Positions 3,428-59,423 of a DNA stretch of 64,000 bases are shown here, one piece after another. The first letter of the stretch is position 1. Each line of letters starts with the position of its first letter. The notes under the pieces are model-generated. The model saw nothing but the letters and a program-made list of their open reading frames with translations. It had not been told where the DNA came from and searched no databases. Origin of the DNA: Hirsutella rhossiliensis (Eukaryota > Ascomycota > Sordariomycetes > Hypocreales > Ophiocordycipitaceae). A program made the translations under genes and the position numbers. The stretch is from positions 310,001 to 374,000 of the forward strand of contig NW_025408677.1 of assembly GCF_020360975.1 (NCBI RefSeq). Direction: 5' to 3'.

Positions 3428-3948
3428 CCTTGAGGAACGAAAGGCTCTTCCTTCCGCCCCTTCCGTAAACACGGACCGCATGGTGCCCCGTGCGCTCCCC
3501 AGCCACTCTTCACTGCCACCTACTTCCGGCCAAACAGAGCCACTGCTTCCTGCTGCCCGCTCCGGCCCCTCTCCCCGGGCCGCCTGACCGCTCCGGCCAT
3601 GGCCTTGAGGAACGAAAGGCTCTTCCTTCCGCCCCTTCCGTAAACACGGACCGCATGGTGCCCCGTGCGCTCCCCAGCCACTCTTCACTGCCACCTACTT
3701 CCGGCCAAACAGAGCCACTGCTTCCTGCTGCCCGCTCCGGCCCCTCTCCCCGGGCCGCCTGACCGCTCCGGCCATGGCCTTGAGGAACGAAAGGCTCTTC
3801 CTTCCGCCCTTCCGTAAACACGGACCGCATGGTGCCCCGTGCGCTCCCAGCCACTCTTCACTGCCACCTACTTCCGGCCAAACAGAGCCACTGCTTCCTG
3901 CTGCCCGCTCGGCCCCTCTCCCGGGCCGCCTGACCGCTCCGGCCATGC
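3428..3948. repeat. 175-bp minisatellite, three copies
   Basis: Three head-to-tail units start at about 3428, 3603 and 3778 (TTGAGGAACGAAAGGCTCTT...). Units 1 and 2 are essentially identical over 175 bp. Unit 3 differs mainly by four or five single-base losses in C/G runs. The repeat lies about 185 bp ahead of the Helitron reading frame, so it may belong to the Helitron 5' leader. Open frames through the repeat exist on both strands but are by-products of the repeat. Confidence 0.85.
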
Positions 3949-33762: not shown

Positions 33763-33881
33763 TGCTGTTTCTAAGCTCGCACCATCCTCTTGTTCGGGGC
33801 CGAGGGATACCAAAGACTCTTAAGAAGTCTTCGTGTCGCAGCAGATTCTGGCTCTATGTAGGTCTACTCGAGAGTAACGTA

Positions 33882-36276: not shown

Positions 36277-36288
36277 TAGGGAGCCAAT

Positions 36289-38700
36289 GCAATGCAATGC
36301 AATTTATTCCGCCCGGAGGGACCAACCCTAGAGGGCCGCGACACTCAGCTATTTACAGATCCTCCACTTTCGACTGCAACACCCAGAAGCCCCACATTTT
36401 GCTCCTATCCGTACATTTCAGCCTCCAATTTCGCCGTTGACAGGCCTGCTTGAAGGCCCATTTCTCCAAGTGTTCAGCATCCTATTCTCAGCAGCTGAAG
36501 CCCGGTCTGTCAATGAGAGGCTGTATGGTGCTAGTACTGTGCACTCTGGTTTGCCAGTACTGTCATCGTTGGTCCGTGTCTAGTCTCCCGGTTGCCATCG
36601 CGAATTTGATCGTAGCGCGTACTGCTGGTAGGTTCGGCTTCCATTTGTCGCCATCGGACATCGACTTCCTCCTAGGAAGAAAGACAGATTTCCATCTTGG
36701 TTCGATTGCATTTCATCATGCTTTCTTTCAGAGATCCATGCCTTACATCGAAAGAGGAAGTGCTCCACTGTCTCGATTGCTTGACCACAGCCACATAGGT
36801 CGCTTTCTGCCGCCTGTATTCCATGAAGGTAACTATTGAGTCTCGATTTGCCTGTGCGAAGTTGCGCAAGTACTCGCTTCTTTCCCACTAAGTGAGTCGT
36901 AGATCGTTCGCGTATGTCTGCCTGGTAACGCCGTGTCAATTCTTTTCGAGTATCTTCCCACTCGCAGGAATTTCCAGTCTTTGCTGTTGCAGTCCAGAGA
37001 GCACTAGTCTTGTTCTTGTCGAGCGGGCTTGAAATGGCGAGTTCTCCTGGATGCGCCCTCGCGTGTCGCTTTCCGCGCTGCTGCCTTTGCTTTTGCCCCA
37101 ACGCAAACCCTTCAGCTCTGCCGGGGCCCATATCATACGAATCGAAACACCCCGTTGCCGGAAGAGCCTGACATGCTTGTAAATTTCTTGATGATGTATT
37201 GGCCCGACTGCTGGCGCGGTTGGCCAATCGCCTGCATGGCCGATCTGTTGCTTGTGACAAAGACTAGCTCTCTTTGCTCGAGTCGCGCTGGCATACATCG
37301 CAGAGCCGTGGCAATCGCCTCCAGCTCCGCGACATATGGGTTTTGATCTTCTCGCGGCCCCAGAGTGATGGAATAGCTCGCCAGTGCTTCTTGCTCGTTG
37401 TTGACTCTCGTATCTCGAACACAGCCTCCCATGCCGACTACGCCTCGCCTTTCGGATGAGCTCGTCGCGACGACAATGCCTTGCGCTTTCGCAACCAACT
37501 CAGCTGCCTGGTCATCATCGAGGTCACAGAGAACACGAATGCGGTCTTCCCACGGGGCCACCGCGTATTCTCTGATGACTTCCAATCTTTGACCTGCTGA
37601 CTCTCCATGCTCTTGAGCCATCGTTTGCAGTGGGGACGTGAATCTTCGGCACACTCTGATGCCCAGCCGGGCGAGAGGATGCGCCCTCGGAGAGTACGAA
37701 CGCTGATCCAAAACCTCGCCGCTGCTTGAGTGTGCCGATTTACCACCGGCCGAATGCTTGCCTCTGCTTCCGCGACTGCCGTCGACACGGTACGGAACGC
37801 TCGGTCACCGCCTGCGCCCCTACCATCTGTGCTCGATTCAACCAGTAGCCCTCCTCACTCCGCATGCATGAGCCCAGACAGTGGAGGCATAATCCATAGC
37901 AGGCGCAACCGCAGCCGTGAACAACTGCCTGGCCACCCGGGGCGACAATCCACGCAGTCTTTTCAGCTGCATCGCGGTTTCCAGTCCCTTCGATGCCGCT
38001 CGTGCCATATGCTCCTTATATCGTAGTTTTGCATCCATGACCACCCCAGCACCTTGGCGTTTTCCTGTGGCCAGATCGTTCTTCCTTTGATAACAAATGG
38101 ACTTGAGCTAGAGCGCTCGGCCATTCGTGTAAAGTGAATGATGGTCGTCTTGTCGCCCTCGAACGTCGCCCCGCTCCGCTTTTCCCACTCTAGGGCACGG
38201 TCGATGATGGACTGGATTCCGTCCCGGTTCGACTCTGCAGTCGAGCCTGTGACCTGCCGAGTAATCGTCCACGAATGCGATTGATCCTCCGGAGGTGCTG
38301 ATTTTGGTCTGCACTAGGTCTGCGTTGAAGAAAAGAAAGAGAATCGGCGAAAGCGGCGATCCCTGGGGAAGACCTGCTTGTGGGAGCTCTTGCTGTGCGG
38401 TACAGTGTCCATTGACCGTGATGCTGGCCGTCCGCTCAGAGCAGAATGCGTCTACCCACCTGACCAGCTCGCGGGCAAACCCTCGCTGCGAGCCGTTGTA
38501 GAAGCCTATCCTGAACACTCCGTTATAAGCACCCTTGACGTCGAAGTTCACAAGACTAAGCACCTTGCCCATTCGCCATGCTTTGTAGATTTTCTCTTGC
38601 AGGAGCACGAGAGCCTGCTCCGCGGAACGCCTCTTCCTGGCTCCAAAGTGGTTAGTTGGCAACAGCCCAAACGTTTCCACCGCAAAGGAAATCCGCTCGG
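36289..38700 (-). mobile_element. 5'-truncated LINE with RNase H, left copy
   Basis: Coding pieces on the minus strand: reverse transcriptase with GLPQGSPLSPILFLFFNADL (about 38340) and IAFVDDYSA (about 38280). RNase H has RRGVVGMGGCVRDT and YVAELEAIATALRC (about 37330). A C-terminal zinc finger has CGCGQAIETVEHFLFRC (about 36770). The 3' end has AATAAA and a pentamer tail (ATTGC, three units here). A 5-bp duplication, ATTGG, flanks it (plus-strand CCAAT at 36284-36288 and 38701-38705). The 5' part (ORF1, endonuclease, N-terminal RT) is missing. The order RT, RNase H, CCHC fits Tad/I-type fungal LINEs. Several frame changes break the frame. Confidence 0.85.
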
Positions 38701-38809
38701 CCAATAGGCTCACGGTACCCGCGAATCTAATATTTCGCGGGCACCGTGACAATGACTAAGCAGATGTCGCAGGGGGGGAGCCAATAGGCTCACGGTACCC
38801 GCGAATCTA
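38701..38809. repeat. Tandemly doubled MULE end, left copy
   Basis: A 75-bp piece of the MULE TIR (CCAATAGGCTCACGG...CAGATGTCGCAGGGG) at 38701-38775 is followed by a second copy that starts GGGAGCCAATAGG at 38776. The second copy is interrupted at 38808-38809 (TA) by pogo-like element 1. The same doubling exists at 53696-53850. Confidence 0.85.
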
Positions 38810-40894
38810 ACGTAATCCACCCCCTTCCCGGTCAGACCCCCTACTCGGTCAAAAATTCCCCACCGACTAGACCCGCACCTTACGCGAGACAAACGGAGCA
38901 CAATACCACGACATATTTACTCCAAGAGACAAGTAACTCGATTAGGACTATCTATTACACGTACGGGCAGTGTGTTCAAAAGACCTGCACTTACTACACC
39001 GTGGTGGTGCACGCTGTCTTGGGACACTCAGCTCTTCTATAAGTCGTTGGTCCCGCTCCTTCTTCCCGCCGTCGCTTGGCCCGCTCATCTTCCTTTGCTC
39101 TCTGTTTCTTGACCCGCTCCTCTTCCTTTCTCGCCGTAGCTTGAACCATTCCTCGTTCTCTTGTCGCCGTCGCTCGGCCCGCTCTTCTCCTTCTTGTCGT
39201 CGCTTGGCCCGCCTCGTCCTTCTCTCGCCGGCGCTTAGTCCTCTCCTCTTCTTCCACTCTCCGTCGCTTAACCCGCTCTTCTTCTTCTTCTCTCCGTTGC
39301 TTTATCCTAACCGTGCCCTCTGCAACCGATAGAGTACCGCCGTCGCCAATGTATTCACGGCGCTGTTCTTTCTCTGCTTTCGCCGCTGGTTTTCTGACCG
39401 AAGTTGCCGGTTTTCGTCGGCAAGGAGGGCGGCGCTGTGCATGGCCATTTGACATCCTTTGATAAGCTGGTTGATAGCTTGTGAAACTGGCGAGTCTGTA
39501 TTTTGTGGCCGGCGTTGAAGAAGCCTTTCGGCGTGAGTGGTAAGCTGGTTGACGTTATGCGGAGTCTTGGCTGCTTCCAGGCTCTTGTTGGGACTTGGAG
39601 TATTCTTGTCGCCGTGATCGTTACCGACTTTGTCAACCTGAACTTGTAACCGCGATAATACTCTGTTTGGGTCAAACGGAAAAAGGCCTGTTGCCATAAA
39701 TCCGCTTCGGATATTCGACGGCGAAAGTGCTTGTCGGCGAGCGTCTAAGTACATGGGAAGGAAGTCCTGCTTGTCGATATGATGGATCCCAGCGAGCATT
39801 TTCTCTTAACCTTTCGGCCGTATATGGTTTTCAACGGCGAAAAGCACCCGACATCAAGAGGCTGCAAGAGATGTGAGGAATGTGCAGGCATTTGGAGTAC
39901 TACGATGGAATTGGCCGTACAGTACTTGTCAAATTCCGGCGTGACGTGACTGCCGTGCCCGTCGAGAATAAGAAGTCGATGCGTACCAACCGTACGGCGC
40001 CGTGTATTCGGATCAAAGACTTCCTTTAACCAATTCAAAGCAAGGTCGTCGGAAGTCCAGCCATTCTCACTAACGGCGATATGCCAGTCATCGGGCACTC
40101 CTGATTCGTACCAGCTTGCTTGGTGTAACTTGCCCTGGAAGATAACCTTCGCCGGTAAAGCCCAACCTTGGCAGTTGATAGACTCGATCACAGTAACCCA
40201 TTCTCGATTTCCAGGCTGCGTGAGTACTGCCCGACCTCGCCGGTCAGACCGGGTAAGGACTCTCGCCGTTGCAGCGACTCCATTTGAAACCCCGTCTCAT
40301 CAAAGTTATAGACATCCTCGTCAAGAATCCCCATTTCTGTTTCGTCGCCGCGACTCGATCGTACCATCCTTGGATCTTTTGGGGGTCTTCGCATTTGGCT
40401 CGTTGGTAGTCGTATCGGCGAGAGTACTTTGCCTTGATTTCGCCGTGGCGGCCAACAAACTTCCGCACCCAGTTTTCCCGACAGGATCTTTGCCTCGCTC
40501 GGAAAGCAATAAGTTGGCCATCCGACGAGTGTAAGCCACTGTCGGCGGCATCCCTCGCTCGTCCATCGACAAGATCCATTGTACCAGGGCAGTCTCTTCC
40601 GTCGCCGTCAACTTCAGGTTGTTCATCTGAGCGTCGCGTCGGCGAATGACACCGCGCAGTCGATCAGATACTGTCGATTGAGGGACGTCGTATGCGGCCG
40701 CAGCCTTGCGGGTACTTTTGAATTGGCCCTGCTGATAGGCCCTGACGGCGAGCAGGACCCGTTCTTCGCGTGGAACCGATTGGTCTCCCGTTGCCGTCAT
40801 AGTGCTCGGTTTGTCTTGCCATAAGTGTGGGTCGCCGCGTGGAGACTTTTTCTGACCGAGTAGGGGGTCTGACCGGGAAGGGGGTGGATTACGT
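38810..40894 (-). mobile_element. Pogo/Fot1-like transposon 1, inside the MULE TIR
   Basis: TIRs of about 43 bp begin ACGTAATCCACCCCCTTCCC and are near perfect. TA flanks both ends (38808-38809 and 40895-40896). Removing it restores the uninterrupted CGCGAATCTAATATTTCGCG seen at the other MULE ends, which proves the insertion. Length 2085 bp; one minus-strand transposase. Confidence 0.92.
38994..40800 (-). pseudogene. Pogo-like transposase 1
   Basis: Start ATG 40800. The psq-type helix-turn-helix reads FKSTRKAAAAYDVPQSTVSD, then a CENP-B-like region (GMPPTVAYTRRMANLLLSE) and frame changes near 40480. The DDE part has VYNFDETGFQMES (about 40310), LLILDGHGSHVTPEF (about 39970) and HSSHLLQPLDVGCFSPLK (about 39880). 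The C-terminal region is a very long charged coiled coil (RREEEEERVKRRRVEEEE and similar) ending near 38994. At least four frame changes. Domain set and TA target site agree with the pogo/Fot1 family. Confidence 0.8.
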
Positions 40895-41036
40895 TAATAT
40901 TTCGCGGGCACCGTGACAATGACTAAGCAGATGTCGCAGGGGAACGCGAGCCCGGTGACCGCGCGTGTTATTGACGGTCGACAACGCGCCTCAGCAAAAG
41001 CACCCGTCCGCTTAAACATGCTGTAGCGACCGTTAA

Positions 41037-43717
41037 ATGGGTCCGCCTTCTCTCGGGCCGACTGCACCGTTTGCCGAAGACTGTCTTCCACCGGAACTTG
41101 ACTACGACTCTCGCGATGACCTCCTCATTTCGATCAACGCTTGGGCTGCGACGCGGGCTATGCCTTCACAACGGAAAGTCCACCAGAGCCAAGGGTGGCA
41201 GACAGACAGTGACCTTCGCGTGCGACCGGTCTTGTCGACCCCAAATCCGTCGATAGAACGTCAGCGAAAGACAACAACCCGAGGGACGGGCTGTGAGTTT
41301 TCGATTTTGGCCAAAGAATCAGCCGACAGGCAATCTTGGGCTGTGCGACACCGCCCAGACAAACGATTTTCCTGCATAATCACGCGCCCAGTCGCCACCC
41401 TTCTGCTCATCCTGCTCATCGTAGGTTGACGGAGAAAGATATTGAAAAGTTATCGCGCCTTTCTAATGCCGGCATTGTCCCAAAAGATATTCGGACCTAT
41501 ATACGACAGAACTGCGATTCTCTTGCCACACAACAAGACATTTACAATGGAATTGCAGCTACCAAGAGAGATGTATGCGAAGGGCAAAGTTCAATTCACG
41601 CTTTGGCCAGTCAGCTCGACCAGGAGGGGTTTTGGAGTCGGATCCAACCCGGCCAAGACGGCCGAGTGACCGCAGTCCTGTTCGCTCATCCAGAGTCCTT
41701 GACGTATCTCCAGGCATACCCAGATGTCTTGTTGCTAGATTGCACGTACAAGACGAACAAACACGGCATGCCGCTCCTCGACATGATAGGAGTAGATGCT
41801 TGTCAGCGATCATTTTGCATAGCATTTGCATTCCTTGGTGGGGAGACCGAAGCTGACTTCGTGTGGGCGTTGGATCGCCTGAGGTCACTGTACGAACACC
41901 ATAGCGCCCGCTTACCCTCTGTCGTCCTAACAGACCGCTGCATCGCCTGTATGAACGCCGTTGCCATTTCCTTTCCCACTTCTTGCTCACTACTCTGTCT
42001 GTGGCATGCCAACAAGGCCGTCCTCCGCTATTGCCGGCCAGCCTTCGTCCGCCAGGACCAACCGGAGTCCACAAACGCAGAGACAATTGATACGTCAGAG
42101 AGCAACGGCTGGTCTGAGTTCTACCAATTCTGGCACTCGATCATGGCTGCACCAAACGAAGAAGCATTCAAGGACCGAGCTACGCAATTCGAGAAGAAGT
42201 ACCTACCCAACCACCTCAAACAAGTTGGATACATCAAAACTTTCTGGCTTGAAGGGTATAAGGAAAAGCTTGTTAAGGCTTGGGTTGATCAACATGCTCA
42301 TTTTGGAAATACAGTCACGTCGCGCGTGGAGGGCATACATGCATTGTTGAAGGCCCATCTCAAAAAGTCCACGCTAAATCTTTTCGAGGCTTGGAGGGCG
42401 ATGAAGCACGCGTTACTCAATCAACTGTCAGACTTGAGATCGAATCAAGCCCGACAGCAGATTCGGGTCCCAATTGAGCTCTCTGGGCCCTTATACGCTT
42501 CAGTGCGCGGTTGGGTCTCCCATGAAGCGCTGAGAAAGGTGGAGGAGCAGCGGAAGATGCTTGGTAGGAGAGATCCTCCCCCACCGCCAACTTGCACGGG
42601 GGCTTTCACCAAGTCCCACGGGCTGCCTTGCCTTCACACTCTAAAATCTTTGCAAGAGCAAGGACAAGTACTCTTACTTGAGCACTTCCATACGCACTGG
42701 CACCTGCAGCGGGATGGAACTCCCGGCCGCTGCTAGAGCCGCGCCAGCGAATCGAGTCGACCTTAGCAAGTTCGGCTATTCCCAAGCAGAGCACTCGGAG
42801 AGAACCCAGTGCATTTGAGAGTATCGAGGAGGCTCGTAAAGCGCCACCCACATGCAGCAGGTGCCATACGGTTGGTCATAGGATGACCGCGAAAGCCTGC
42901 CCGCTGCGCTTTGGAGAGCTGCTTCAAGAGACTACGTCGTCGATGCATTCACGATCGGTGTCACCATCGGAGATCGTACCGTCATCCCAGTACGTGCAAG
43001 CCGCTTTGGACGCACAGGAGCCAGAGCTTGCAACTGAGCCGCCAACTGATGCGTCCCTGGCGACGGATTTGGGAGTGTCGCAGGAACCCTTACAATTCTG
43101 CCCACTACAGCTCCAGACCATCCTCCTGCCCAGTCGGGTCAGTCCTTTCACGCCGAAATAGGTTCAGTTGCCACGACCTTTCCGGTGACCAAGATTCCGG
43201 GCCCGTACCGGGTCCGCCCCGCGATGCCACTGAGCTGCTGGTATCGCCACCACCTATCTCACCTGACTTGCCAGCCCCACCGCCGCCGAAATATGATTCA
43301 CCAGAAGCTATACACAAAAGTTATACCGCTGCAAGAAGCGCATGGTATGCAGCGCAGCCGGCCGGCAGCATCAAGACAAACCAACAATACCGCAAGGCAA
43401 TGAGGCTTCCAGCTAGGTATGACAAGCAAAGCTATGAATGGTGTATGGACTACAAACAAATGTCCAGGCATTGCGCCACTACAACGGGGTTGAGAGCATG
43501 GACGAAAGAAGAAATGATGGCATACCTTGACTGGAGCCATGCAGAAGATCAGCGTGTTGAAGCCCAGATCATGAAGGAGATGGGAGACAATCCGTTAGCC
43601 AACACACGGAAGGGCGTGGCCGACATTTGGCGACAGGTAGAAAAGGACAGCCGAGAGCAGGAAACGCTGTATTCTGCACATGTTGAGGCAGATGATTGTA
43701 TTTTCGTCGAGCCGTAG
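41037..43717 (+). pseudogene. MULE transposase, left copy
   Basis: Start ATG 41037 (MGPPSLGPTAPFAEDCLPPE). It has a FAR1-like N-terminal domain, then the MULE core with DVLLLDCTYKTNKHGMPLLD (about 41730-41790), VVLTDRCIACMNAV (about 41930) and LCLWHANKAVLRY (about 41995). A SWIM zinc finger follows (CTGAFTKSHGLPCLHTL, about 42595), a second knuckle CSRCHTVGHRMTAKAC (about 42860), and a conserved tail to 43717. A one-base loss near 41367 (TTTTCC against TTTTCCC in the right copy) and further indels near 42722, 42815 and 43075 break the frame. It would cut at the TIRs and make the 9-bp target duplications typical of Mutator elements. Confidence 0.85.
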
Positions 43718-43835
43718 TTGGCTCTACTGATATTAGCAGCTCTTTAGTTCTAGTAGACAGTAGACTCACACATACGACGAGCACAGTGCCGACAGACTAC
43801 CCGCATCATGGCTTTACGCAGACAACGGACTGTGA

Positions 43836-43899
43836 TTAGTCATTTTCGCGGTGCCCGCGAAATATTAGATTCGCGGGTACCGTGAGCCTATTGGCTCCC
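43836..43899. repeat. MULE right TIR, left copy
   Basis: 64 bp, inverse of 50735-50798. It contains an inner palindrome (GGTGCCCGCGAA...TTCGCGGGTACC), so each end can itself fold. Confidence 0.85.
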
Positions 43900-44667
43900 C
43901 CTTTCCATGTATGGAAAACCACCCTGATCTGATAGTTCAAGAATCGAAGAGATGTCGACGAGGTTGAGGCGTTTGACGAAGTTTTTAAACTTCTGGCCTG
44001 GAAGCGGCTTGGTGAGACCGTCAGCAAGCATGAGAGCTGTTGGAGTGTATTTGATGTCATAATGCTTCCGTTGATAGGCTTGCCTAGCCCAGCAGGAATG
44101 AATATCAACATGCTTGAGTGCTGTACGGAGCCGTGGAATGTCTTGGGATACAAGACGGATTGTCTGAAGGTTATCACACTGAATCATTGGCTGGCCGTCG
44201 AGCTTCAATGAAAGCTGCATGAAGAGGCGCATGGTTGCAATTGTTTCCTTAACAGTGTGAGTGAGGGCGAGGAGCTCGGCTTCAGTGGATGACGTTGTGA
44301 CGGTATCCTGTTTGCCTGCTTTCCAGATGATTGGCCCGCCGAAAAGGGTGAGAATGCATCCTTGGGATGACTTTCTGGTTTGTTTGTCGTCCGCAAAGGC
44401 TGCATCAGACGCGATTTCGAAATCACTTGTGTAGTGGGTTTCGAGGGATGATGTTGGGGCGGATATGCCTGCGGGTGCGGGATCCGAAATTGAAATGGGC
44501 TCTATTGAGTCTGAGAACTCAATTGCGAGATACCTCGTGGCGTAGAGATACTCAATCAAATGGTCTACCGCCTTGGAATGGTGTTCCGAGGGGTTGAGGA
44601 GGAATTCTGACAGTTTTGAAGCTGCCTTAGCTATGTCCGGGCGAGTGATCACTGATGCGTAATTCAC
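43888..44667 (-). pseudogene. Copia B RNase H end
   Basis: A minus-strand frame of 259 residues with TRPDIAKAASKLSEFLLNP, SDAAFADDKQTRKSSQG, TVTTSSTEAELLAL and ADGLTKPLPGQKF, the copia RNase H signature. The last codons read into the MULE TIR, so the original end and the 3' LTR are gone. It joins the reverse transcriptase frame with a shift near 44667. Confidence 0.85.
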
Positions 44668-46231
44668 AGAGCCGACTTTGCCTTGGTAGAGCTGAATTTC
44701 GTCATCAGAAGCCTTGAGTGAGTTAGGCTGTAACTCATTTGTGGGGAAAGGGACGCCTTTGACTTCATCGAGCTGTCTGAGACCGTATTTCTGAACGATC
44801 TTCTCGATGTAGGAATCTTGGCAGAGCCATAGCTTCCTATTAGGCCTATCGCGAAGGACGCGAATTCCCAGGAACCATTGAGCTCTCCTTGGTCCGTCAT
44901 GGCGAACTTGGCTCGAAGGGCTGCTGCTAGCTGATCTGCTGCAGCTGTATTTGCTTTCCAGTAGAGGAAGACTATGTCATCAACGAAGAAGAAGACAGTG
45001 AGCCAGTCGTTCTGGAAGATACAAGGTTCGTCAGGGCATTGGGTTAGTCCGAGGTCTTCAAAGGCTGCTGTGAGATCTTTCTGCCAAAGAAGAGGGGACC
45101 TTCGTAACCCGTACAAAGCTCTGTTGAGTCTAAGTACCCATCCGATTCGCATGAAGCCGTCGGGGAACCGGACGAAGATGACTTCATCCTTATCAAGGAG
45201 GCTGTTTGTGAATGCGTTGACCGCGTCGAGTTGCCTAGTCTCGAGGTCAAATTTGGTTGTGATAGCCATCAGAATGCGAAAGGAGCGGCCTGCAAGGGTT
45301 GCTGCATAGGTGTCTTTGTCTCCTAGCAATTGCAAGTCTCCGCGGACGCAGATTCGGGCTTTGAATTTGATGAGGAACCCGTGCTTGTTGAACTTATATT
45401 TAAACACCCAGGTCAGGGGTATAACACGGCCTACGGCTTCGGCCTTTGGAATTGGTGTGAACGTTCTTCTCTGTTGGAGGGATCTCCATTCGACGTTTCC
45501 GGCTTCTTTGAACTGTGGTCCAAAGGGATGATTCTTGAGGTCTCTCCAGGTCTTGGGTTCAGGAGGAAGGGATCTTTGATGAAGCTTTTCTTCTCTGCCG
45601 AGAAAGAAGCTGCTGTGAAAGCGTCCTGTTGTGAGAGCTGAGAATGCTCCGTGCTTTCGAGGTTGTGGGGGTCTTTGTGACCTGCGAGGTTGCGGCGCTG
45701 CGGCTGCTGGCTGCCGACTTAGTGGTGTGAGTTGAAGAGAATCTGGTGGAGAATCTCTCGTGGGAGCAGGAGATGGATAGGGATTTTGATCCGTGTTCTC
45801 ATGATCAAATGGTTCATTGGTTTGAACCACGATGGTGTCATCGGGCTGAACTTCAGTAGCCGATTCAGGGGTCTGAGTGATATTTTCGCTGATTTCCTCG
45901 TAGTCAGATTCGTCTTCAATATGAGCTGGAAGTTGAACTTCTAGACGTGAATGCTCCTGATCAGATGGTTCTGATAGGTCCGGGTCGTAGAAAGAGTCCT
46001 CAGTGAATTTGACATCACGAACTCGTCTGATTTCATCTCGGGAAGGAATCCAAATGCGGAAGATGTTAGTAGAATCGTAGCCGACAAGGTAGCCGACTTC
46101 GGCGTGAGGAGAGGTCTTAAGATCCTTCTTCTGGGTGTTGTTTAGAGCCTGAACTGTCAAAGGATAGGCTTTACAACCATATGCTTTGAGGAAGGTGGTG
46201 TCTGGCTTGATGTGACCCTGAAGGTATCCTG
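44664..46231 (-). pseudogene. Copia B integrase end and reverse transcriptase
   Basis: After the pogo insertion the frame continues TGYLQGHIKPDTTFLKAYGC, then an acidic spacer, then reverse transcriptase: PLTWVFKYKFNKHGFLIKFK, TRQLDAVNAFTNS, RALYGLRRSPLLWQ and FFFVDDIVF at about 44975 (the catalytic VDD). The frame is open for more than 1.5 kb, with one shift near 44850. The enzyme copies element RNA in particles. Confidence 0.85.
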
Positions 46232-46233
46232 TA

Positions 46234-48085
46234 AGTCCCTGCACATAGAAATGGGCACCCCCCTGTTTTGGGCACCCCAAAAAAATCACGACCATTTTCA
46301 ACACCATTAATTCAATCCCTTCTCACTGCCCACCACCGTGCACTACGATACAATCGTCACCTATTTCTGAAACCTCAGCTTCGGTTTCATCAGATTCTTC
46401 ATTCTCAGCTGCGTTCACCTCCTCCTGCGCCCGTCGTATTGCCTCAATATTGGCGAACCTCGAATTCGGGCTCGTGACCACCCTCTTCCTTTTTTTCGGC
46501 TTGACGGCCGCCAATTGTGTTTCCAGTGCCTGAATCTGCAATTGAGCTTTTGCTAAAGGCCATCCTTCTCGTCAAACCCTTTCTGATCTTCCTGAACAGC
46601 AATCTCTTCGTGGGCACGTCGTCGTCTAGCTGGTTGAATTGAACTACCTGAACCTTCAGATCTTGCGAGCGCCTCGGGGTCGACCACGCAATCTGGGATG
46701 TGTCTGATTGCCAGTCACTGGTGGGTAAGTGGCTATTGAATGCATTGGCCACATTTTTCGCGTTCTTTTGCGTCTGTTGCTGTTCTCCAGCAGAAGAGGG
46801 CTCAAAAGTGGCTTCGCCATCGACACCGGCCACAAACCCGTCGCTTTCCAGCCACCCTTGATGTTTGACACAGTGAGCGCTTGCTCGCGTGCTTTCTGGT
46901 AGCAGGAAAGAAAGTTTTGCTTGCCGACTGGGCTTGAATCGGTCAGGAGGCTGAGAAATCCGACCTGTTTGCGGTAGTAGTGCTTAAGAGCGGAGAAGAC
47001 AGACAAATCGAGCGGTTGCAACACATGAGAGGTATGGGAGGTAAGAAAAGAAGGTGAATCTGATGCTGGTAGCATAGATACATGAAGTCAACCGTCTCGT
47101 GACTTCCGTGGCCGTCCAATACTAGCAGTCTTCGCTCCGAAGGGTCGGGTGGCTGGGTTCTTGGAATGAACACCTTTTCGAGCCACTCCACCGCAGTTTG
47201 GTCCGAAGTCCAGCCGTTCTTTGTCGCAGTGAATTGCCAGTCACTAAAAGTACTGAGATCTTCTGGGAACCACTGTTGCTGGACCGATTTGCCCTTGAAA
47301 ATGACGAGTGGAGGGAGGAAGGTGCCGGCAGCGGACACGCACTCGATGAACGACGTCCAGACCCGAGAACCAGGCGTCTTCTTTTGTACAGATCGTTTTT
47401 CAGCACTGCCAACGACCAGGCCATTCTCCCCAAGTCCTTCCATGATGCCTGCTTCATCCATGTTGTACCTGTTCTCCGGCTTAATAGCCAGAATCTCGGA
47501 AGGAAGAAATTGTTGAACCAAGGCCGAATTACCTCGGTAGAAGCGCCGTTGACACGCGCAGAGTCTCTGTGATGGCACTTCTGGGTCCGAACTGCAGGAT
47601 TTCGTCTTAAAAATGCTTGCATCCAGTGTTTTCCGAGCGGTGTGTGGTCTCCTTTGACGGCGAGCATGCGCTGCGCGAACTGCCTGATCTGCGAGTGAGT
47701 GGGAGGAAGGCCCAAGGCGTCCTGAATGAGAATCCATTCGGTAAGTTGCTTTTCCTGTGTCTGAGAAAGCCTCTGAAGAGCAGAAAATGCATCCTTTCTG
47801 CATTCGTGACCATGCATGCGATTGTAAAGAGTTGCCCTCGGGACGCCCCAATCGCGAGCAGCCTTCTTGGCGGATCCGCCATTGGCGATTGCCTCAAGGG
47901 CGCTGTGAATGTCAGACTCTGTATATTTCATCAGTAGTGGCTTGAAGACACATGCGTCAATTTTTTAGCAGATTGGATGCGTTTCCGCGGTGAAATTTGC
48001 TGTTGAAGTTGACGCAGCCGTTTAGGTTGGGCACCCATCTTGGGTGCCCAAAACAGGGGGGTGCCCATTTCTATGTGCAGGGACT
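46234..48085 (-). mobile_element. Pogo/Fot1-like transposon 2, inside copia B
   Basis: TIRs begin AGTCCCTGCACATAGAAATG and run about 42 bp, containing GGGCACCC in both orientations (small hairpins). TA flanks both ends (46232-46233, 48086-48087). Length 1852 bp. The copia B reading frame is continuous when it is removed, which fixes the order of events. Confidence 0.92.
46323..47931 (-). pseudogene. Pogo-like transposase 2
   Basis: Start ATG 47931. The helix-turn-helix reads SAKKAARDWGVPRATLYNRM, followed by a CENP-B-like domain (GLPPTHSQIRQFAQRML, then HWMQAFLRRNP). The DDE core has NRYNMDEAGIMEG (about 47460), LLVLDGHGSHETVDF (about 47110) and HTSHVLQPLDLSVFSALK (about 47020). The C-terminal part is short, with a Glu-rich end at 46323 and no long coiled coil, unlike elements 1 and 3. 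Frame changes at about 47480, 47050 and 46800 interrupt it. Confidence 0.82.
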
Positions 48086-48087
48086 TA

Positions 48088-49055
48088 TCCTTCTTTTCGT
48101 CAAGGAGCCATTGATGAAGCTTCTCGAACGGGGTTTTCCAGTCAGAGGATTGCTGGGGCGATCTGTTGTGAAGGAAGGCTGCGGCGTTCCAAGTTTCTGG
48201 CCACAAATCATGGGGAAGATTCGCTCCTATTTGCATAGTGCGAGACTTGGTGGATATTACCCCCCCAGATCGTTCAGCTGATCCATTCTGTGCGGGTGTG
48301 TAGGGAGCAGAAGGCTCATCCTTGATGCCTTCGTGTGTGATCCATTCATCGTAGGCTGTCTGTAGCCCAGGATCGTTGTCCCTGTGGACGATGCAGACTT
48401 GTAGCTTCCATTGACGAAAAATGAAGGCGGCGAATGCTTTGAGAGCACCCATGAGAGACTCTTGCGTGGTGTCGTTGAGAGGATAGACGAAAATCATGCC
48501 TGTAAAATCGTCTGTGACCAAAAGGGCGGCTCTCTTCCCGTTGAAGGAAGGGTGATGACTGAAGATATCTATGTAGATTCTCCAGAAGGGTCGCGGCGCC
48601 TTCGTCTGTGGTTTCCGTCTCGAAACAAGCCGTTTTGCTTTGCCTAGGGAGCAAGCTTCGCAGTCAAATTGCAATGGGCCTTTGATCTTGCATCCGAGAG
48701 TGTTTTCAACAGCGTGTTGAAGTGCATCAGCGTTCAAGTGGCCTAGTCGCTTGTGCCAAAGGCTGGCTTCTGCTGACTGCAATGTGCGCGGGCTTGAAGA
48801 GGCTGCAAATGATGATTTTGGGAGTTCATTGTACTCAAGAACGGGCTGACGATGCACACGCTTTGTGATGCATATGATTGTACCGTCATCTTGCTTGAAT
48901 ACCTTTCCTGAAGCAGGATCCCAATTGTATCCCTTTGAATGAAGAGGTCGAGCGAGGCAACGTTGGTATGGAAGTTCGGGATGTATGCCACGTTGTTGAG
49001 CTGAAATAGCCCACCTGTGATACGTAGCATTACAGTGCCGTAACCAAGAATACAT
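48088..49055 (-). pseudogene. Copia B pre-integrase domain and integrase
   Basis: GAG-pre-integrase segment SLWHKRLGHLNADALQHAV with the zinc-binding CEACSLGKAKR (about 48740-48640). The integrase core has IYIDIF, VHRDNDPGLQTAYDEW and, about 35 residues later, GSAERSGG, the D-D-E triad. Shifted one base from the Gag-protease frame near 48960. It inserts element cDNA into chromosomes. Confidence 0.85.
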
Positions 49056-50368
49056 AGCTGTGAGTCGCCTGCGAAAAGTTCTTCTGGTTGATCAAGGGGA
49101 ACGTAGTTGGAAAACCGGGATTCGTTATTGCAGATGTGCGTATCGGATCCGGAATCCAGGATAAATGAGTCTCGAAGAGGATATGGAGCCTTTAAAGTTG
49201 AAAAGCTCGTGCAATGAGTGAGTGGAGTAGGGAATGAATCCGGCGTAGGGGCAGGCTCGTGATCAGATGCTTCTTCCATCGGAAGTCCTGCAAATGCTGC
49301 ACCTTTGAGGGGTTCTTCCTTCTTGTCCGACTCCAGGAGAGTGCCAGTGCGGTCCAAGATGGTATCAACTTTGCGTTTCAAATCAATGTTGGACTCAAGC
49401 TTATCTCTGATCTTCTTGAGGGCGGGTTCATGAGGGACCCATCCTTCTGGTCTGATCGTTTTGTCGAGGTAGAAACATTTATTGATTGAGTGAAATTTGT
49501 TACCACAAACGCAACGGTTTTCCTTCTTCTCATCGTCTGAAGTAGGCTTCTGCTTCCCATCTTTGTCACGGCCTTGGAAGCCAACTGGAAATGCTCCGCC
49601 TTTATCATTGTTGCCCTTGGAACCGGCATTCTTAATGCGGTGGGCGCGTTCGAAGATCTCAGAGATTTTAATGCCGTCTGGGAAGTGGTCCTTCCAGTCG
49701 GGTTTTCCGGTGACAGCTTCATCCTCCATTTTGTTGATCCAGTAGTCAGTGAATGGTTCGTTGATGGATGAGACTGCCTGAAGAAAGTCTTGAGTAGGGC
49801 GGAGACCCTGTGTGTCAGGGAGCCCTAGTTTCTTAGCTTCGGTGAGGGTCTTCTGCCACTTCGTGACCCAGGTCTCAATCTCGGACCTGTCAGGAGCTCG
49901 AAGAACGGCTCGGTAACGTTCCAAGACTTCTCTCTCAAGGGCCCAGTCAGTCGGTGCGACTCTGGCTTGGAGGAGAGATAGTTGCTTGGCAACGTCATGT
50001 TCGTCAGCAATTGTGCTGTAGTAATTGCCGATATGCTTGACGATGTGTTCTTGAAGGCTGGCGAGGGCCTTCGTGTTGTCCCGATAGGTTTGGAGCCTAG
50101 ATCGGTATGATGTGTGAAGATATTCCAATCGACGGAATTCTTCTGAGGTTAGAGCACCAAGATCAGATGCTTGGGCGTTCACCTGGATGTGTGTAGGCTC
50201 TGATGGCCTTACAATGGTTGATTTGTCGTCATTCGCAGGGTCCACAAACTCCCAGATGTTATGAGATGTGGCGAATTTCTGGATGACGGAAATCCATTGT
50301 TTCCAGTCACAAGGTCCGTTGAGAATGATGACCTTGGAAGAGCTCTCGTGATCAGATGATTGAGCCAT
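48960..50368 (-). CDS. gag: Copia B Gag-protease
   Basis: Start ATG 50368 (MAQSSDHESSSKVIILNGPC), preferred to the upstream non-ATG extension. About 470 residues are open. The capsid region reads CDWKQWISVIQKFATSHNIW, the zinc knuckle CVCGNKFHSINKCFYL (about 49500), and the protease active site FILDSGSDTHICNNE (about 49150) has the expected DSG. The frame shifts near 48960 into integrase. Confidence 0.85.
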
Positions 50369-50436
50369 CTTGTCGTCGCGTGATGATGCGAAGTGGAAGC
50401 GATACCGTGAAAATAATATAATCACCCAGTTGTGCA

Positions 50437-50451
50437 AACCGGGCTCATAAC
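50437..50451 (-). promoter_or_regulatory. Copia B primer-binding site (half-tRNA-iMet)
   Basis: The minus strand reads GTTATGAGCCCGGTT directly after the LTR end. It is the same initiator tRNA-Met anticodon-arm complement as in copia A and C, although the Gag sequence is clearly different. Confidence 0.65.
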
Positions 50452-50734
50452 TATTGCATTACGAGATGGGCAGCAAGCATTAATCTTGAGTGGAATAAAG
50501 CTCTTGATTCTTCTATCTAGAGAGGGAGTGTAAATGATCTTATATAGCTAGAAGAACAGTGGAAGTGAATGAATAACCCAGCTGTTGGGTTGTGGCTGTG
50601 AAAAGCGTAGGCAAAAGGAAGGTTAATTGCCTGCATTAGCCTAGGTTGACTGGAAGACAAAATGAGTCTTGGCTGAGTATACGGCCGAATATGCCTCGGC
50701 TGAGGGAATGGTGAATAAGCCTTGCAAAAGAAAG
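50452..50734 (-). repeat. Copia B 5' LTR, proximal part
   Basis: 283 bp; the remaining 47 bp lie at 55964-56010 on the far side of the right composite element. On the minus strand the LTR would run from TGTTGCACTG to GTAATGCAATA, about 330 bp. Confidence 0.7.
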
Positions 50735-50798
50735 GGGAGCCAATAGGCTCACGGTACCCGCGAATCTAATATTTCGCGGGCACCGCGAAAATGACTAA
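50735..50798. repeat. MULE left TIR, right copy
   Basis: GGGAGCCAATAGGCTCACGG... about 64 bp, matching the inverse at 43836-43899 and, with a few differences, 53710-53775. Confidence 0.85.
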
Positions 50799-50916
50799 TC
50801 ACAGTCCGTTGTCTGCGTAAAGCCATGATGCGGGTAGTCTGTCGGCACTGTGCTCGTCGTATGTGTGAGTCTACTGTCTACTAGAACTAAAGAGCTGCTA
50901 ATATCAGTAGAGCCAA

Positions 50917-53600
50917 CTACGGCTCGACGAAAATACAATCATCTGCCTCAACATGTGCAGAATACAGCGTTTCCTGCTCTCGGCTGTCCTTTTCTACCTG
51001 TCGCCAAATGTCGGCCACGCCCTTCCGTGTGTTGGCTAACGGATTGTCTCCCATCTCCTTCATGATCTGGGCTTCAACACGCTGATCTTCTGCATGGCTC
51101 CAGTCAAGGTATGCCATCATTTCTTCTTTCGTCCATGCTCTCAACCCCGTTGTAGTGGCGCAATGCCTGGACATTTGTTTGTAGTCCATACACCATTCAT
51201 AGCTTTGCTTGTCATACCTAGCTGGAAGCCTCATTGCCTTGCGGTATTGTTGGTTTGTCTTGATGCTGCCGGCCGGCTGCGCTGCATACCATGCGCTTCT
51301 TGCAGCGGTATAACTTTTGTGTATAGCTTCTGGTGAATCATATTTCGGCGGCGGTGGGGCTGGCAAGTCAGGTGAGATAGGTGGTGGCGATACCAGCAGC
51401 TCAGTGGCATCGCGGGGCGGACCCGGTACGGGCCCGGAATCTTGGTCACCGGGAAAGGTCGTGGCAACTGAACCTATTTCGGCGTGAAAGGACTGACCCG
51501 ACTGGGCAGGAGGATGGTCTGGAGCTGTAGTGGGCAGAATTGTAAGGGTTCCTGCGACACTCCCCAAATCCGTCGCCAGGGACGCATCAGTTGGCGGCTC
51601 AGTTGCAAGCTCTGGCTCCTGTGCGTCCAAAGCGGCTTGCACGTACTGGGATGACGGTACGATCTCCGATGGTGACACCGATCGTGAATGCATCGACGAC
51701 GTAGTCTCTTGAAGCAGCTCTCAAAGCGCAGCGGGCAGGCTTTCGCGGTCATCCTATGACCAACCGTATGGCACCTGCTGCATGTGGGTGGCGCTTTACG
51801 AGCCTCCTCGATACTCTCAAATGCACTGGGTTCTCTCCGAGTGCTCTGCTTGGGAATAGCCGAACTTGCTAAGGTCGACTCGATTCGCTGGCGCGGCTCT
51901 AGCAGCGGCCGGGGTTCCATCCCGCTGCAGGTGCCAGTGCGTATGGAAGTGCTCAAGTAAGAGTACTTGTCCTTGCTCTTGCAAAGATTTTAGAGTGTGA
52001 AGGCAAGGCAGCCCGTGGGACTTGGTGAAAGCCCCCGTGCAAGTTGGCGGTGGGGGAGGATCTCTCCTACCAAGCATCTTCCGCTGCTCCTCCACCTTTC
52101 TCAGCGCTTCATGGGAGACCCAACCGCGCACTGAAGCGTATAAGGGCCCAGAGAGCTCAATTGGGACCCGAATCTGCTGTCGGGCTTGATTCGATCTCAA
52201 GTCTGACAGTTGATTGAGTAACGCGTGCTTCATCGCCCTCCAAGCCTCGAAAAGATTTAGCGTGGACTTTTTGAGATGGGCCTTCAACAATGCATGTATG
52301 CCCTCCACGCGCGACGTGACTGTATTTCCAAAATGAGCATGTTGATCAACCCAAGCCTTAACAAGCTTTTCCTTATACCCTTCAAGCCAGAAAGTTTTGA
52401 TGTATCCAACTTGTTTGAGGTGGTTGGGTAGGTACTTCTTCTCGAATTGCGTAGCTCGGTCCTTGAATGCTTCTTCGTTTGGTGCAGCCATGATCGAGTG
52501 CCAGAATTGGTAGAACTCAGACCAGCCGTTGCTCTCTGACGTATCAATTGTCTCTGCGTTTGTGGACTCCGGTTGGTCCTGGCGGACGAAGGCTGGCCGG
52601 CAATAGCGGAGGACGGCCTTGTTGGCATGCCACAGACAGAGTAGTGAGCAAGAAGTGGGAAAGGAAATGGCAACGGCGTTCATACAGGCGATGCAGCGGT
52701 CTGTTAGGACGACAGAGGGTAAGCGGGCGCTATGGTGTTCGTACAGTGACCTCAGGCGATCCAACGCCCACACGAAGTCAGCTTCGGTCTCCCCACCAAG
52801 GAATGCAAATGCTATGCAAAATGATCGCTGACAAGCATCTACTCCTATCATGTCGAGGAGCGGCATGCCGTGTTTGTTCGTCTTGTACGTGCAATCTAGC
52901 AACAAGACATCTGGGTATGCCTGGAGATACGTCAAGGACTCTGGATGAGCGAACAGGACTGCGGTCACTCGGCCGTCTTGGCCGAATTGGATCCGACTCC
53001 AAAACCCCTCCTGGTCGAGCTGACTGGCCAAAGCGTGAATTGAACTTTGCCCTTCGCATACATCTCTCTTGGTAGCTGCAATTCCATTGTAAATGTCTTG
53101 TTGTGTGGCAAGAGAATCGCAGTTCTGTCGTATATAGGTCCGAATATCTTTTGGGACAATGCCGGCATTAGAAAGGCGCGATAACTTTTCAATATCTTTC
53201 TCCGTCAACCTACGATGAGCAGGATGAGCAGAAGGGTGGCGACTGGGCGCGTGATTATGCAGGGAAAATCGTTTGTCTGGGCGGTGTCGCACAGCCCAAG
53301 ATTGCCTGTCGGCTGATTCTTTGGCCAAAATCGAAAACTCACAGCCCGTCCCTCGGGTTGTTGTCTTTCGCTGACGTTCTATCGACGGATTTGGGGGTCG
53401 ACAAGACCGGTCGCACGCGAAGGTCACTGTCTGTCTGCCACCCTTGGCTCTGGTGGACTTTCCCGTTGTGAAGGCATAGCCCGCGTCGCAGCCCAAGCGT
53501 TGATCGAAATGAGGAGGTCATCGCGAGAGTCGTAGTCAAGTTCCGGTGGAAGACAGTCTTCGGCAAACGGTGCAGTCGGCCCGAGAGAAGGCGGACCCAT
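50917..53600 (-). pseudogene. MULE transposase, right copy
   Basis: Minus-strand counterpart of 41037-43717 and nearly identical to it. Start ATG 53600. The frame from 53496 is open for 559 residues through the FAR1-like region, the MULE core (DVLLLDCTYKTNKHGMPLLD) and the SWIM finger to 51817. One-base differences from the left copy occur at about 53480, 51906, 51720 and 51560. At each place one copy keeps the frame the other loses, except near 51820, where both change frame. The C-terminal domain (51693-50917) is open. Confidence 0.87.
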
Positions 53601-53695
53601 TTTAACGGTCGCTACAGCATGTTTAAGCGGACGGGTGCTTTTGCTGAGGCGCGTTGTCGACCGTCAATAACACGCGCGGTCACCGGGCTCGCGTT

Positions 53696-53850
53696 CCCCT
53701 GCGACATCTGCTTAGTCATTGTCACGGTGCCCGCGAAATATTAGATTCGCGGGTACCGTGAGCCTATTGGCTCCCCCCCTGCGACATCTGCTTAGTCATT
53801 GTCACGGTGCCCGCGAAATATTAGATTCGCGGGTACCGTGAGCCTATTGG
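53696..53850. repeat. Tandemly doubled MULE end, right copy
   Basis: Unit 1, 53696-53775 (80 bp, CCCCTGCGACATCTGCTTAG...ATTGGCTCC). Unit 2, 53776-53850, is identical but stops at ATTGG, where the LINE begins. Confidence 0.88.
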
Positions 53851-55944
53851 CCGAGCGGATTTCCTTTGCGGTGGAAACGTTTGGGCTGTTGCCAACTAAC
53901 CACTTTGGAGCCAGGAAGAGGCGTTCCGCGGAGCAGGCTCTCGTGCTCCTGCAAGAAAATCTACAAAGCATGGCGAATGGGCAAGGTGCTTAGTCTTGTG
54001 AACTTCGACGTCAAGGGTGCTTATAACGGAGTGTTCAAGGATAGGCTTCTACAACGGCTCGCAGCGAGGGTTTGCCCCGAGCTGGTCAGGTGGGTAGACG
54101 CATTCTGCTCTGAGCGGACGGCCAGCATCACGGTCAATGGACACTGTACCGCACAGCAAGAGCTCCCACAAGCAGGTCTTCCCAGGGATCGCCGCTTTCG
54201 CCGATTCTCTTCTTTTCTTCAACGCAGACCTAGTGCAGACCAAAATCAGCACCTCCGGAGGATCAATCGCATTCGTGGACGATTACTCGGCTTGGGTCAC
54301 AGGCTCGACTGCAGAGTCGAACCGGGACGGAATCCAGTCCATCATCGACCGTGCCCTAGAGTGGGAAAAGCGGAGCGGGGCGACGTTCGAGGGCGACAAG
54401 ACGACCATCATTCACTTTACACGAATGGCCGAGCGCTCTAGCTCAAGTCCATTTGTTATCAAAGGAAGAACGATCTGGCCACAGGAAAACGCCAAGGTGC
54501 TGGGAGTGGTCATGGATGCAAAACTACGATATAAGGAGCATATGGCACGAGCGGCATCGAAGGGACTGGAAACCGCGATGCAGCTGAAAAGACTGCGTGG
54601 ATTGTCGCCCCGGGTGGCCAGGCAGTTGTTCACGGCTGCGGTTGCGCCTGCTATGGATTATGCCTCCACTGTCTGGGCTCATGCATGCGGAGTGAGGAGG
54701 GCTACTGGTTGAATCGAGCACAGATGGTAGGGGCGCAGGCGGTGACCGGAGCGTTCCGTACCGTGTCGACGGCAGTCGCGGAAGCAGAGGCAAGCATTCG
54801 GCCGGTGGTAAATCGGCACACTCAAGCAGCGGCGAGGTTTTGGATCAGCGTTCGTACTCTCCCGAGGGCGCATCCTCTCGCCCGGCTGGGCATCAGAGTG
54901 TGCCGAAGATTCACGTCCCCACTGCAAACGATGGCTCAAGAGCATGGAGAGTCAGCAGGTCAAAGATTGGAAGTCATCAGAGAATACGCGGTGGCCCCGT
55001 GGAAGACCGCATTCGTGTTCTCTGTGACCTCGATGATGACCAGGCAGCTGAGTTGGTTGCGAAAGCGCAAGGCATTGTCGTCGCGACGAGCTCATCCGAA
55101 AGGCGAGGCGTAGTCGGCATGGGAGGCTGTGTTCGAGATACGAGAGTCAACAACGAGCAAGAAGCACTGGCGAGCTATTCCATCACTCTGGGGCCGCGAG
55201 AAGATCAAAACCCATATGTCGCGGAGCTGGAGGCGATTGCCACGGCTCTGCGATGTATGCCAGCGCGACTCGAGCAAAGAGAGCTAGTCTTTGTCACAAG
55301 CAACAGATCGGCCATGCAGGCGATTGGCCAACCGCGCCAGCAGTCGGGCCAATACATCATCCAAGAAATTTACAAGCATGTCAGGCTCTTCCGGCAACGG
55401 GGTGTTTCGATTCGTATGATATGGGCCCCGGCAGGAGCTGAAGGGTTTGCGTTGGGGGCAAAAGCAAAGGCAGCAGCGCGGAAAGCGACACGCGAGGGGC
55501 GCATCCAGGAGAACTCGCCATTTCAAGCCCGCTCGACAAGACTGGAAATCTGTCTTTCTTCCTAGGAGGGAAGTCGATGTCCGATGGCGACAAATGGAAG
55601 CCGAACCTACCAGCAGTACGCGCTACGATCAAATTCGCGATGGCAACCGGGAGACTAGACACGGACCAACGATGACAGTACTGGCAAACCAGAGTGCACA
55701 GTACTAGCACCATACAGCCTCTCATTGACAGACCGGGCTTCAGCTGCTGAGAATAGGATGCTGAACACTTGGAGAAATGGGCCTTCAAGCAGGCCTGTCA
55801 ACGGCGAAATTGGAGGCTGAAATGTACGGATAGGAGCAAAATGTGGGGCTTCTGGGTGTTGCAGTCGAAAGTGGAGGATCTGTAAATAGCTGAGTGTCGC
55901 GGCCCTCTAGGGTTGGTCCCTCCGGGCGGAATAAATTGCATTGC
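53851..55944 (+). mobile_element. 5'-truncated LINE with RNase H, right copy
   Basis: Same truncation point as the left copy (CCGAGCGGATTTCC). Reverse transcriptase is partly shifted (ELPQAGLP, then a one-base loss), with IAFVDDYSA near 54275, RNase H (RRGVVGMGGCVRDT, 55105) and tail ATTGC in two units. ATTGG flanks it at 53846-53850 and 55945-55949. About 320 bp at 55545 are missing relative to the left copy, including the CCHC finger. The deletion joins two TGGAAAT words. Confidence 0.85.
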
Positions 55945-55963
55945 ATTGGCTCCCAAAAGAAAG

Positions 55964-56010
55964 GTTGATGAGGCTTGTAGATATTGATGTGCCAGTGTAA
56001 CAGTGCAACA
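55964..56010 (-). repeat. Copia B 5' LTR, distal part
   Basis: 47 bp from the target duplication to CAGTGCAACA, the proposed LTR start (TGTTGCACTG on the minus strand). It continues the LTR piece at 50452-50734 once the composite is removed. Confidence 0.6.
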
Positions 56011-58637: not shown

Positions 58638-58798
58638 TGTTGAAGGCTGTGTAGCGGATGAAGTGTTCATTGAAGGTTAAAGAAATCTGTGAGTAAATAC
58701 AGAGAAATGCCACCTTAATATATCACTTCCAAGCTAGTGTCAGAGGCTCCTCAGAGAGCCTTTCAGGGGTTCAGGGTTTCTGATGACCCACTTCAACA
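58638..58798 (-). repeat. LTR copy related to the solo LTR in the pseudokinase
   Basis: 161 bp, nearly identical to 33026-33186. Next to it on the right, CTCCCACTCGCTCTGAGG reads as a purine tract on the minus strand (GAGTGGGAG), so it looks like the 3' LTR of a minus-strand element. The 5-mers on the two sides do not match. The internal part is not recognisable past about 58900. Confidence 0.75.
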
Positions 58799-59218
58799 CT
58801 CCCACTCGCTCTGAGGACGGCTCTGACAGACAGGCGAAGGTGCTGTGCAGCAGTGTGCTGTTTCCTAGGGCCCTCGCTAAAACCCAAAAAACACCTCTTT
58901 ATGGGTGAAAAATATTGGGAAAGAGTGCGCCACTTTAGGTAACGTGAAATAGTAATGACCCTTAATGGGGGTGACCTCCTTAATATGCCACTTCCAAGCG
59001 GCTGACAGAACCCCCTGGGAGCGCCTTTCAGGGGTCCGGATGACCCACCTCAAACTCGCTTGAAGGGCGGCTCTGTCAGACAGTCAAGGTGCCGTGCAGC
59101 GGCAAGGATAGTCCCGTCTAGCCCTCGCTAAAACCCAAAATCACCTTCGTGGGTAAAAACACAGGAAATAGCGCGCCTACGGGTTCGTTGCTTGCAACGC
59201 GTGGACTGCGGAGGATGA
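58799..59218. repeat. Degenerate duplicated LTR/leader block
   Basis: The stretch 58970-59150 is a diverged copy of 58710-58895: both have the CTTAATAT...CACTTCCAAGC start, the CCTTTCAGGGGT...GATGACCCAC core and the CCCTCGCTAAAACCCAAAA end. This implies two related LTR-element ends side by side. No coding sequence. Confidence 0.65.
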
Positions 59219-59423
59219 CCAGATTGATCTCGCGGAGTGGCCATCAGAGCTCCGTCAGTGTGGCTGCCTTCTTGCAGAAGGGTCTTCGCCAATGGAGGGC
59301 CAGATTGATCTCGCGGAGTGGCCTCAGAGCTCCGTCAGTGTGGCTGCCTTCTTGCAGAAGGGTCTTCGCCAAGGGAGGGCCAGATTGATCTCGCGGAGTG
59401 GCCTCAGAGCTCCGTCAGTGTGT
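59219..59423. repeat. 80-bp tandem repeat, 2.5 copies
   Basis: Units start at 59219, 59300 and 59380 (CCAGATTGATCTCGCGGAGT...), 81 and 80 bp long and nearly identical; the third is partial. Located just inside the proposed 3' LTR of copia E, where it may be an LTR-internal repeat. Confidence 0.85.

Follow-up and report, generated by a model that had tools for sequence, protein, structure and literature searches.

Hirsutella rhossiliensis is a nematode-parasitic ascomycete, and the window analyzed here is a 64,000-bp stretch of its genome (contig C11, positions 310001-374000) from an assembly of 40 contigs and 81,811,784 bases (81.8 Mb); positions given without a contig name are those of the window. 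The composite element that we refer to as copy 1 contains a Mutator-like element (MULE) of about 3.04 kb on the minus strand (50735..53776), with a transposase frame on the same strand (51817..53496; PF10551, E 1e-24). Its 5' terminal inverted repeat (TIR), with the tip GGGAGCCAAT, lies at 50735..50801 on the plus strand, and the MULE is complete with its own inner 3' TIR (53709-53776) ending in ATTGGCTCCC, the base at which six other full copies also stop. The TIRs of copy 1 are 68 bp long and 95.6% alike. A second 3' TIR end stands in tandem on the plus strand (53776..53851), with 76 bp identical to 53696-53771, and is broken off after TATTGG where a LINE starts; the intact TIR with its own tip ends inside the composite, at 53776. 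The LINE (about 53848..55944, plus strand) is truncated at its 5' end, where it overlaps the TIR by 4 bp (TGGC), and carries a 3' tail of GCATT units. The only domain match in this fragment, to RVT_1, is weak and falls below the cut-off. It is followed on the plus strand by an outer MULE tip, ATTGGCTCCC (55945..55954), which probably represents the distal half of the LINE target duplication. The original prediction, made from the bases of this stretch, had placed a LINE in the terminus of a MULE, and both parts of that description hold: the LINE sits between the TIR and the outermost 10 bp, and the PF10551 match, the TIRs, and a 9-bp target duplication are all present. Elsewhere in the window we observed tandem repeats of about 175 and 80 bp (3427-3947 and 59213-59422) and a 163-bp repeat found in two places at 99% identity (33026-33188 and 58638-58800).

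The 9-bp duplication consists of AAAAGAAAG at 50726..50734 and again at 55955..55963, and the pair abuts the MULE ends directly, with GGGAGCCAAT starting at 50735 on the left and ATTGGCTCCC at 55945-55954 on the right. The flanks of copy 1 are two parts of a single LTR (left part about 50452-50734, right part 55955-56010) that belongs to an adjoining Copia-type element on the minus strand (43927..50734), with RVT_2, rve, and gag_pre-integrs domains. Twenty genome matches to the left LTR flank run to its last base, one of them being copy 1 itself; in 15 of the remaining 19, the right flank joins with an overlap of exactly 9 bp, as in uninterrupted LTRs. This test took 17 of the 25 right-flank matches and omitted the 8 without a left match reaching the last base, and the uninterrupted site was inspected base by base at two of the 15 LTRs. 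Since these empty sites hold the 9 bp once, and not already doubled, the AAAAGAAAG duplication was made by insertion and is the real target duplication it had been taken for. At another copy of that LTR (C19:497600-497677; L121, L135), a MULE tip and a pogo-like element lie at AAAAGAAAG, and MULEs may have entered one LTR site twice, at the copy 1 site and on C19. We considered using the C19 tip beside AAAAGAAAG to date copy 1 and rejected it: the flank differs and none of the left-flank matches lies nearby, and it gives no order of events.

The 9-bp target duplication is a feature of this MULE more widely, being perfect in five of its six other full copies; it is absent from the sixth, C7b, and from copy 2 of the composite, described below. 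Two MULEs on contig C7 (C7:3713725-3716762 and C7:3753777-3756813) have a common 5' flank, and one of them, C7b, has its 3' flank replaced exactly at the tip. This MULE has an exact tip without a duplication and contains no LINE, which indicates that breaks at tips also happen otherwise in this genome. The tip itself is common to several MULE families: among the 100 places listed for TATTGGCTCCC, many are arranged as inverted pairs with spacings of 3.0, 3.2, or 5.3 kb. For three such pairs, both ends were examined: in two of them each end bears a TIR, in the third a pogo-like element occupies one end, and the flanks of all three repeat 9 bp (10 in one). Tandem TIRs and tips also occur at other MULE ends, 53 and 84 bp apart (C3:1247300/1247353, C3:7465824/7465877, and C3:7509027/7509111; L098-L100). 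Relatives of the MULE transposase were found in Fusarium and Metarhizium. We count fungal MULEs of the Hop type among the closest known kinds, a likeness drawn from type features only, namely the MULE transposase domain and 9-bp target duplications that they have in common with the element described here.

A pogo-like element (DDE_1 and HTH_psq domains, as identified in the window copy) abuts the MULE tip at the TA of TATTGGCTCCC, with 10 such junctions exact and 8 more carrying one or two mismatches. It is a second family for which the MULE tip is a hotspot, in both orientations and at both MULE ends. Four MULEs with the pogo-like element in the tip (C1:8454725-8460038, C2:2153384-2158706, C2:2299363-2304665, and C3:7456517-7461830; L106/L107, L129-L131) were examined at both ends, and they are flanked by perfect 9-bp duplications, GGCTGAGCG, TATCGATAT, CTCAACAGT, and CGGAGGAGG. 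These four might be taken as proof that composites with a displaced tip are mobile, a reading that we rejected: one pogo insertion is opposite in orientation and another occupies the other end of its MULE, which makes at least three of the four independent insertions into resident MULEs (those at L130 and L131 could not be told apart). Because resident MULEs entered by a pogo-like element are flanked by 9-bp duplications, a duplication around a displaced tip is expected without the nest moving. The duplication of copy 1, although genuine, therefore fails as the evidence of composite movement for which it had been offered; entry of the LINE or of the pogo-like element into resident MULE tips is frequent and leaves the same picture.

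Copy 2 of the composite lies on the minus strand at 36279..43899, inverted relative to copy 1, with the near ends of the two 7 kb apart. It consists of the outer tip, the LINE, the tandem TIR, and the MULE, and sequence comparison confirmed the predicted identity of its MULE-LINE junction with that of copy 1; both tips and the doubled 3' TIR are present as well. Copy 2 has no target duplication, its flanks being AGTGGGGTA and CCTTTCCAT, a point absent from the original prediction. A pogo-like element with a TA target (38810..40894, minus strand; DDE_1, HTH_psq, and HTH_Tnp_Tc5) sits in its inner TIR, and another (33877..36278, minus strand; HTH_Tnp_Tc5, HTH_psq, and DDE_1) meets the outer tip of copy 2 and seems, by comparison with its left end, to lack about 3 bp at its right end. 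Between copy 2 and the Copia-type element lies a short terminal piece of another repeat (43900..43926, minus strand), presumably hAT-like by its features. Both ends of copy 2 are exact at the tips and set between two unrelated transposons.

A search for the junction scored all of its 37 candidates and gave 37 matches, and only the two that span the junction, copies 1 and 2, carry it in the 81.8-Mb genome. Among the places from this search, the second TIR copy is likewise confined to copies 1 and 2. The original prediction had looked to several loci with different 9-bp duplications as a sign of mobility and to a single locus as its refutation. The first was not observed: there are two places only, one of them with a duplication; on the second, the outcome lies in between, with two places 7 kb apart, one lacking a duplication. 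A search next to other tips for the flank halves that copy 2 lacks did not recover them; the flank 9-mers gave one match, the unrelated L050 locus. The LINEs of the two copies share their 5' truncation, with its TGGC overlap, and one run-length deletion that is not in three full-length copies. They differ in a 314-bp internal stretch deleted from copy 1, in how many GCATT units they carry (two in copy 1, three in copy 2), and in a few further changes. The prediction had also pointed to the LINE lying at exactly the same base in both copies. That base is indeed shared; the argument is weaker than supposed, because the LINE family prefers that base, and it is the shared truncation and the tandem TIR that carry it. 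Judged by these shared features, the compound junction, made up of the tandem TIR and the common truncation point of the LINE, most likely arose once.

The preference of the LINE family was examined with a 17-base probe for the LINE 3' end allowing at most one mismatch, which misses ends that differ by more. It detected 37 places in the genome (34 exact and 3 with one mismatch to the probe), and the 3' flanks were examined at all 37, giving 36 rows, as two were identical in the compared stretch. Exact ATTGGCTCCC follows directly after 17 of the 37 LINE ends. The other 20 comprise 3 within one mismatch of the tip (one of which, in L043, runs directly into another LINE piece), 1 with two mismatches (L054, where the LINE ends at the variant tip ATTAGATCCC beside a TIR-like end), and 16 elsewhere. 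After related ends were collapsed, 13 of 29 separate cases were at the tip; the ends merged were three pairs sharing a 3' flank among the 17, copies 1 and 2, and four pairs with shared flanks among the others. Random insertion would be expected to give about 3e-5 tip matches in 37, and 164 Mb of strand contains 150 occurrences of TATTGGCTCCC but 9 of a reversed control. With 17 of 37 ends abutting ATTGGCTCCC, the presence of the LINE in the copy 1 tip is not chance; with 20 of 37 off the exact tip, the family has a strong preference for MULE tips, not strict specificity. A copy on C22 encodes an AP-type endonuclease (PF14529) and a reverse transcriptase (PF00078), and among the listed relatives that bear organism names, all are fungal.

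Six of the 13 tip cases have a MULE-type TIR immediately 5' of the LINE (the two C22 copies, L039, L041b/L042b, L050, and copies 1/2), and none was seen on that side in the other 7 (L033, L036, L041a/L042a, L043b, L044, L045/L046, and L084). The latter are perhaps chimeric cDNAs or later insertions, and some of them have foreign 5' pieces in common, as chimeric cDNAs would. At L041, L042, L043, L044, L045, and L046, the same foreign 5' pieces (...GAATATGAATCAATACT and ...ATCACCCCTA) occur at different LINE positions, as template switching would give. We also noted short elements (L084, L090, L085/L087, L086, and L088) whose final part is roughly the terminal 70-90 bp of the LINE, from near GGATCTGTAAATAGC; other sequence precedes it, and that sequence is common to L084 and L090. 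These elements look like SINE-like or chimeric copies using the LINE tail.

In three cases where both flanks can be read, the target duplication made by the LINE contains the tip. The full-length LINE at C22:744758-750222 (5.46 kb) is preceded by ...CGCGCCTCTATTGGCTCCCGCC and followed by ATTGGCTCCCGCC, with the tip-holding duplication ATTGGCTCCCGCC on both sides; L039 has ATTGGCTCCCGGTGG and L054 the variant tip ATTAGATCCC on both sides of the LINE. At L041b/L042b and L050, a MULE-type TIR stands directly before the LINE and the tip is on the far side only. Other LINE sites have ordinary 13-15-bp duplications without the tip (L035, L038, and L089). The many copies ending in GGCTCCC suggested that it was simply the 3' end of the LINE, which we rejected: in these three cases the tip also precedes the LINE in the target duplication, and many copies lack it. 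The other full-length C22 LINE has the same 5' side and only 11 bp matching after it. A common 5' flank with different 3' flanks could suggest a second mobile LINE composite; the two C22 LINEs are more simply explained as two insertions into two MULEs, and a search for the 9-bp flank plus 5' tip predicted for these two cases gave 0 matches.

Taken with the empty LTR sites, these observations make it highly probable that a MULE entered the Copia LTR and that a tip-preferring LINE then entered the MULE by target-primed reverse transcription. The MULE insertion would have generated the 9-bp duplication of copy 1, and the LINE would have entered the tip either at copy 1 or in a parent copy. Its endonuclease may have opened the bottom strand after GGGAGCCAAT, and the GCATT tail would have paired with the AT(T) of the tip before reverse transcription. 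The LINE target duplication would include the tip, leaving one tip on the MULE end and a second outside the LINE; one half of a 10-bp duplication would then be the inner tip (53767-53776), the other half the outer tip (55945-55954). On the 5' side, the LINE would have been joined by the short overlap, with 76-80 bp of the TIR also copied in, which would explain the tandem TIR and the LINE together. Copies 1 and 2 would descend from this single event, although the different numbers of GCATT units, two and three, argue against clean copying and would need slippage.

The claim that the composite moved or was duplicated after the LINE landed stands in part: the shared compound junction most likely has one origin, whereas movement as such has to be argued from two copies. 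That one copy arose by transposition using the outer tip is plausible, and it explains most simply why two exact tips border unrelated DNA. In its full form, this account has the transposase binding the TIR about 2.1 kb inside and cutting at the outer 10-bp tip, with copy 2 later losing its duplication through an adjacent rearrangement; it extends the origin proposed above and is compatible with it, and we give it a little less than an even chance. Copies 1 and 2 end exactly at the same two tips with unrelated DNA at both ends, they have the compound junction in common, copy 1 has a perfect duplication with empty sites, and MULE C7b likewise has one flank replaced exactly at the tip. However, in-place landing of the LINE would predict the duplication of copy 1 just as well, in line with the four MULEs that have a pogo-like element in the tip. 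Copy 2 has no duplication and its missing flank halves were not found beside a tip (one unrelated match), no third junction was found in the genome, and the complete inner end at 53776 would seem a better substrate.

The main rival to outer-tip movement is repair of a broken resident MULE tip with the other copy as template. Copying would have run through the tandem TIR and the LINE, with rejoining at the outer tip of 10 bp, and the LINE would have spread by conversion and not by transposition. This would explain both the exact outer tip and the missing target duplication at copy 2, and it suits two copies that are close and inverted; at one site, moreover, copy 2 has GG like MULE C7a where copy 1 has AA. 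A one-base insertion near the MULE 5' end found in copies 1 and 2 alone (column 288) speaks against it, but differences in the MULE body, this insertion included, are mostly run-length changes that could be sequencing error, and neither pattern is firm. A phylogeny of the MULE body was set aside, as substitutions are too few and run-length differences too many for it to decide. Overall, we regard such templated repair as possible but on the unlikely side. Segmental duplication or misassembly of one locus is less probable still: both copies lie within one window and the many run-length differences suggest a long-read assembly, but the copies differ by the 2.1-kb pogo insertion and the 314-bp deletion, and immediately beyond each tip their flanks are dissimilar. 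Two independent LINE insertions would fit the preference of the family for this base and the differing GCATT unit numbers, yet the LINE would have had to be truncated twice at an identical point along its 5.46 kb and to come on both occasions with the 76-bp tandem TIR, which is absent from six other full MULE copies, and we consider this very improbable.

To our knowledge, few LINEs that target other transposons are known. The LINE Tx1L reportedly targets the DNA transposon Tx1D of Xenopus, at a site inside one element; there, too, a LINE targets a DNA transposon, whereas the target here is the extreme tip common to several MULE families. Transposons are among the known targets of target-specific LINEs (PMC4640811). 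Such LINEs belong to the R1 and Tx1 clades and to early-branching clades, and their preferred target lies in repeated sequence, as here. The present LINE also has an AP-type endonuclease, as in R1/Tx1, and partly retains its target in the duplication; it differs from the known target-specific LINEs in its fungal host, in a target formed by the tips of several MULE families, and in an incomplete preference (17/37). No report of a LINE preferring MULE tips was found in one open-access literature collection, judged on titles and abstract openings. LINEs targeting transposons are thus already known, and a fungal LINE that prefers the tips of several MULE families, a case that appeared in none of the reports so judged, appears new. 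Plant MULEs with tandem TIRs are described in a study that leaves their origin open and has elements with an extra TIR at one end only hardly ever in multiple copies (PMC3310237). The duplicated terminal repeat of those elements is as found here, except that here the outer TIR copy has lost its tip to the LINE.

The MULE tip is the very sequence that its transposase must cut. It is conceivable, though we think it rather unlikely, that this LINE lineage exploits MULEs, its tip-holding duplication building a new outer end that would be cut by a MULE transposase bound far inside, with the LINE carried along by a DNA transposon. As a caution, a target duplication around a nested transposon says nothing on whether the nest moved. 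Insertions of the LINE and of the pogo-like element at one base form a natural series from which one may ask what portion of a MULE end may be displaced with mobility still retained, and the genome lets one ask how a target of only about ten bases is located by a LINE.
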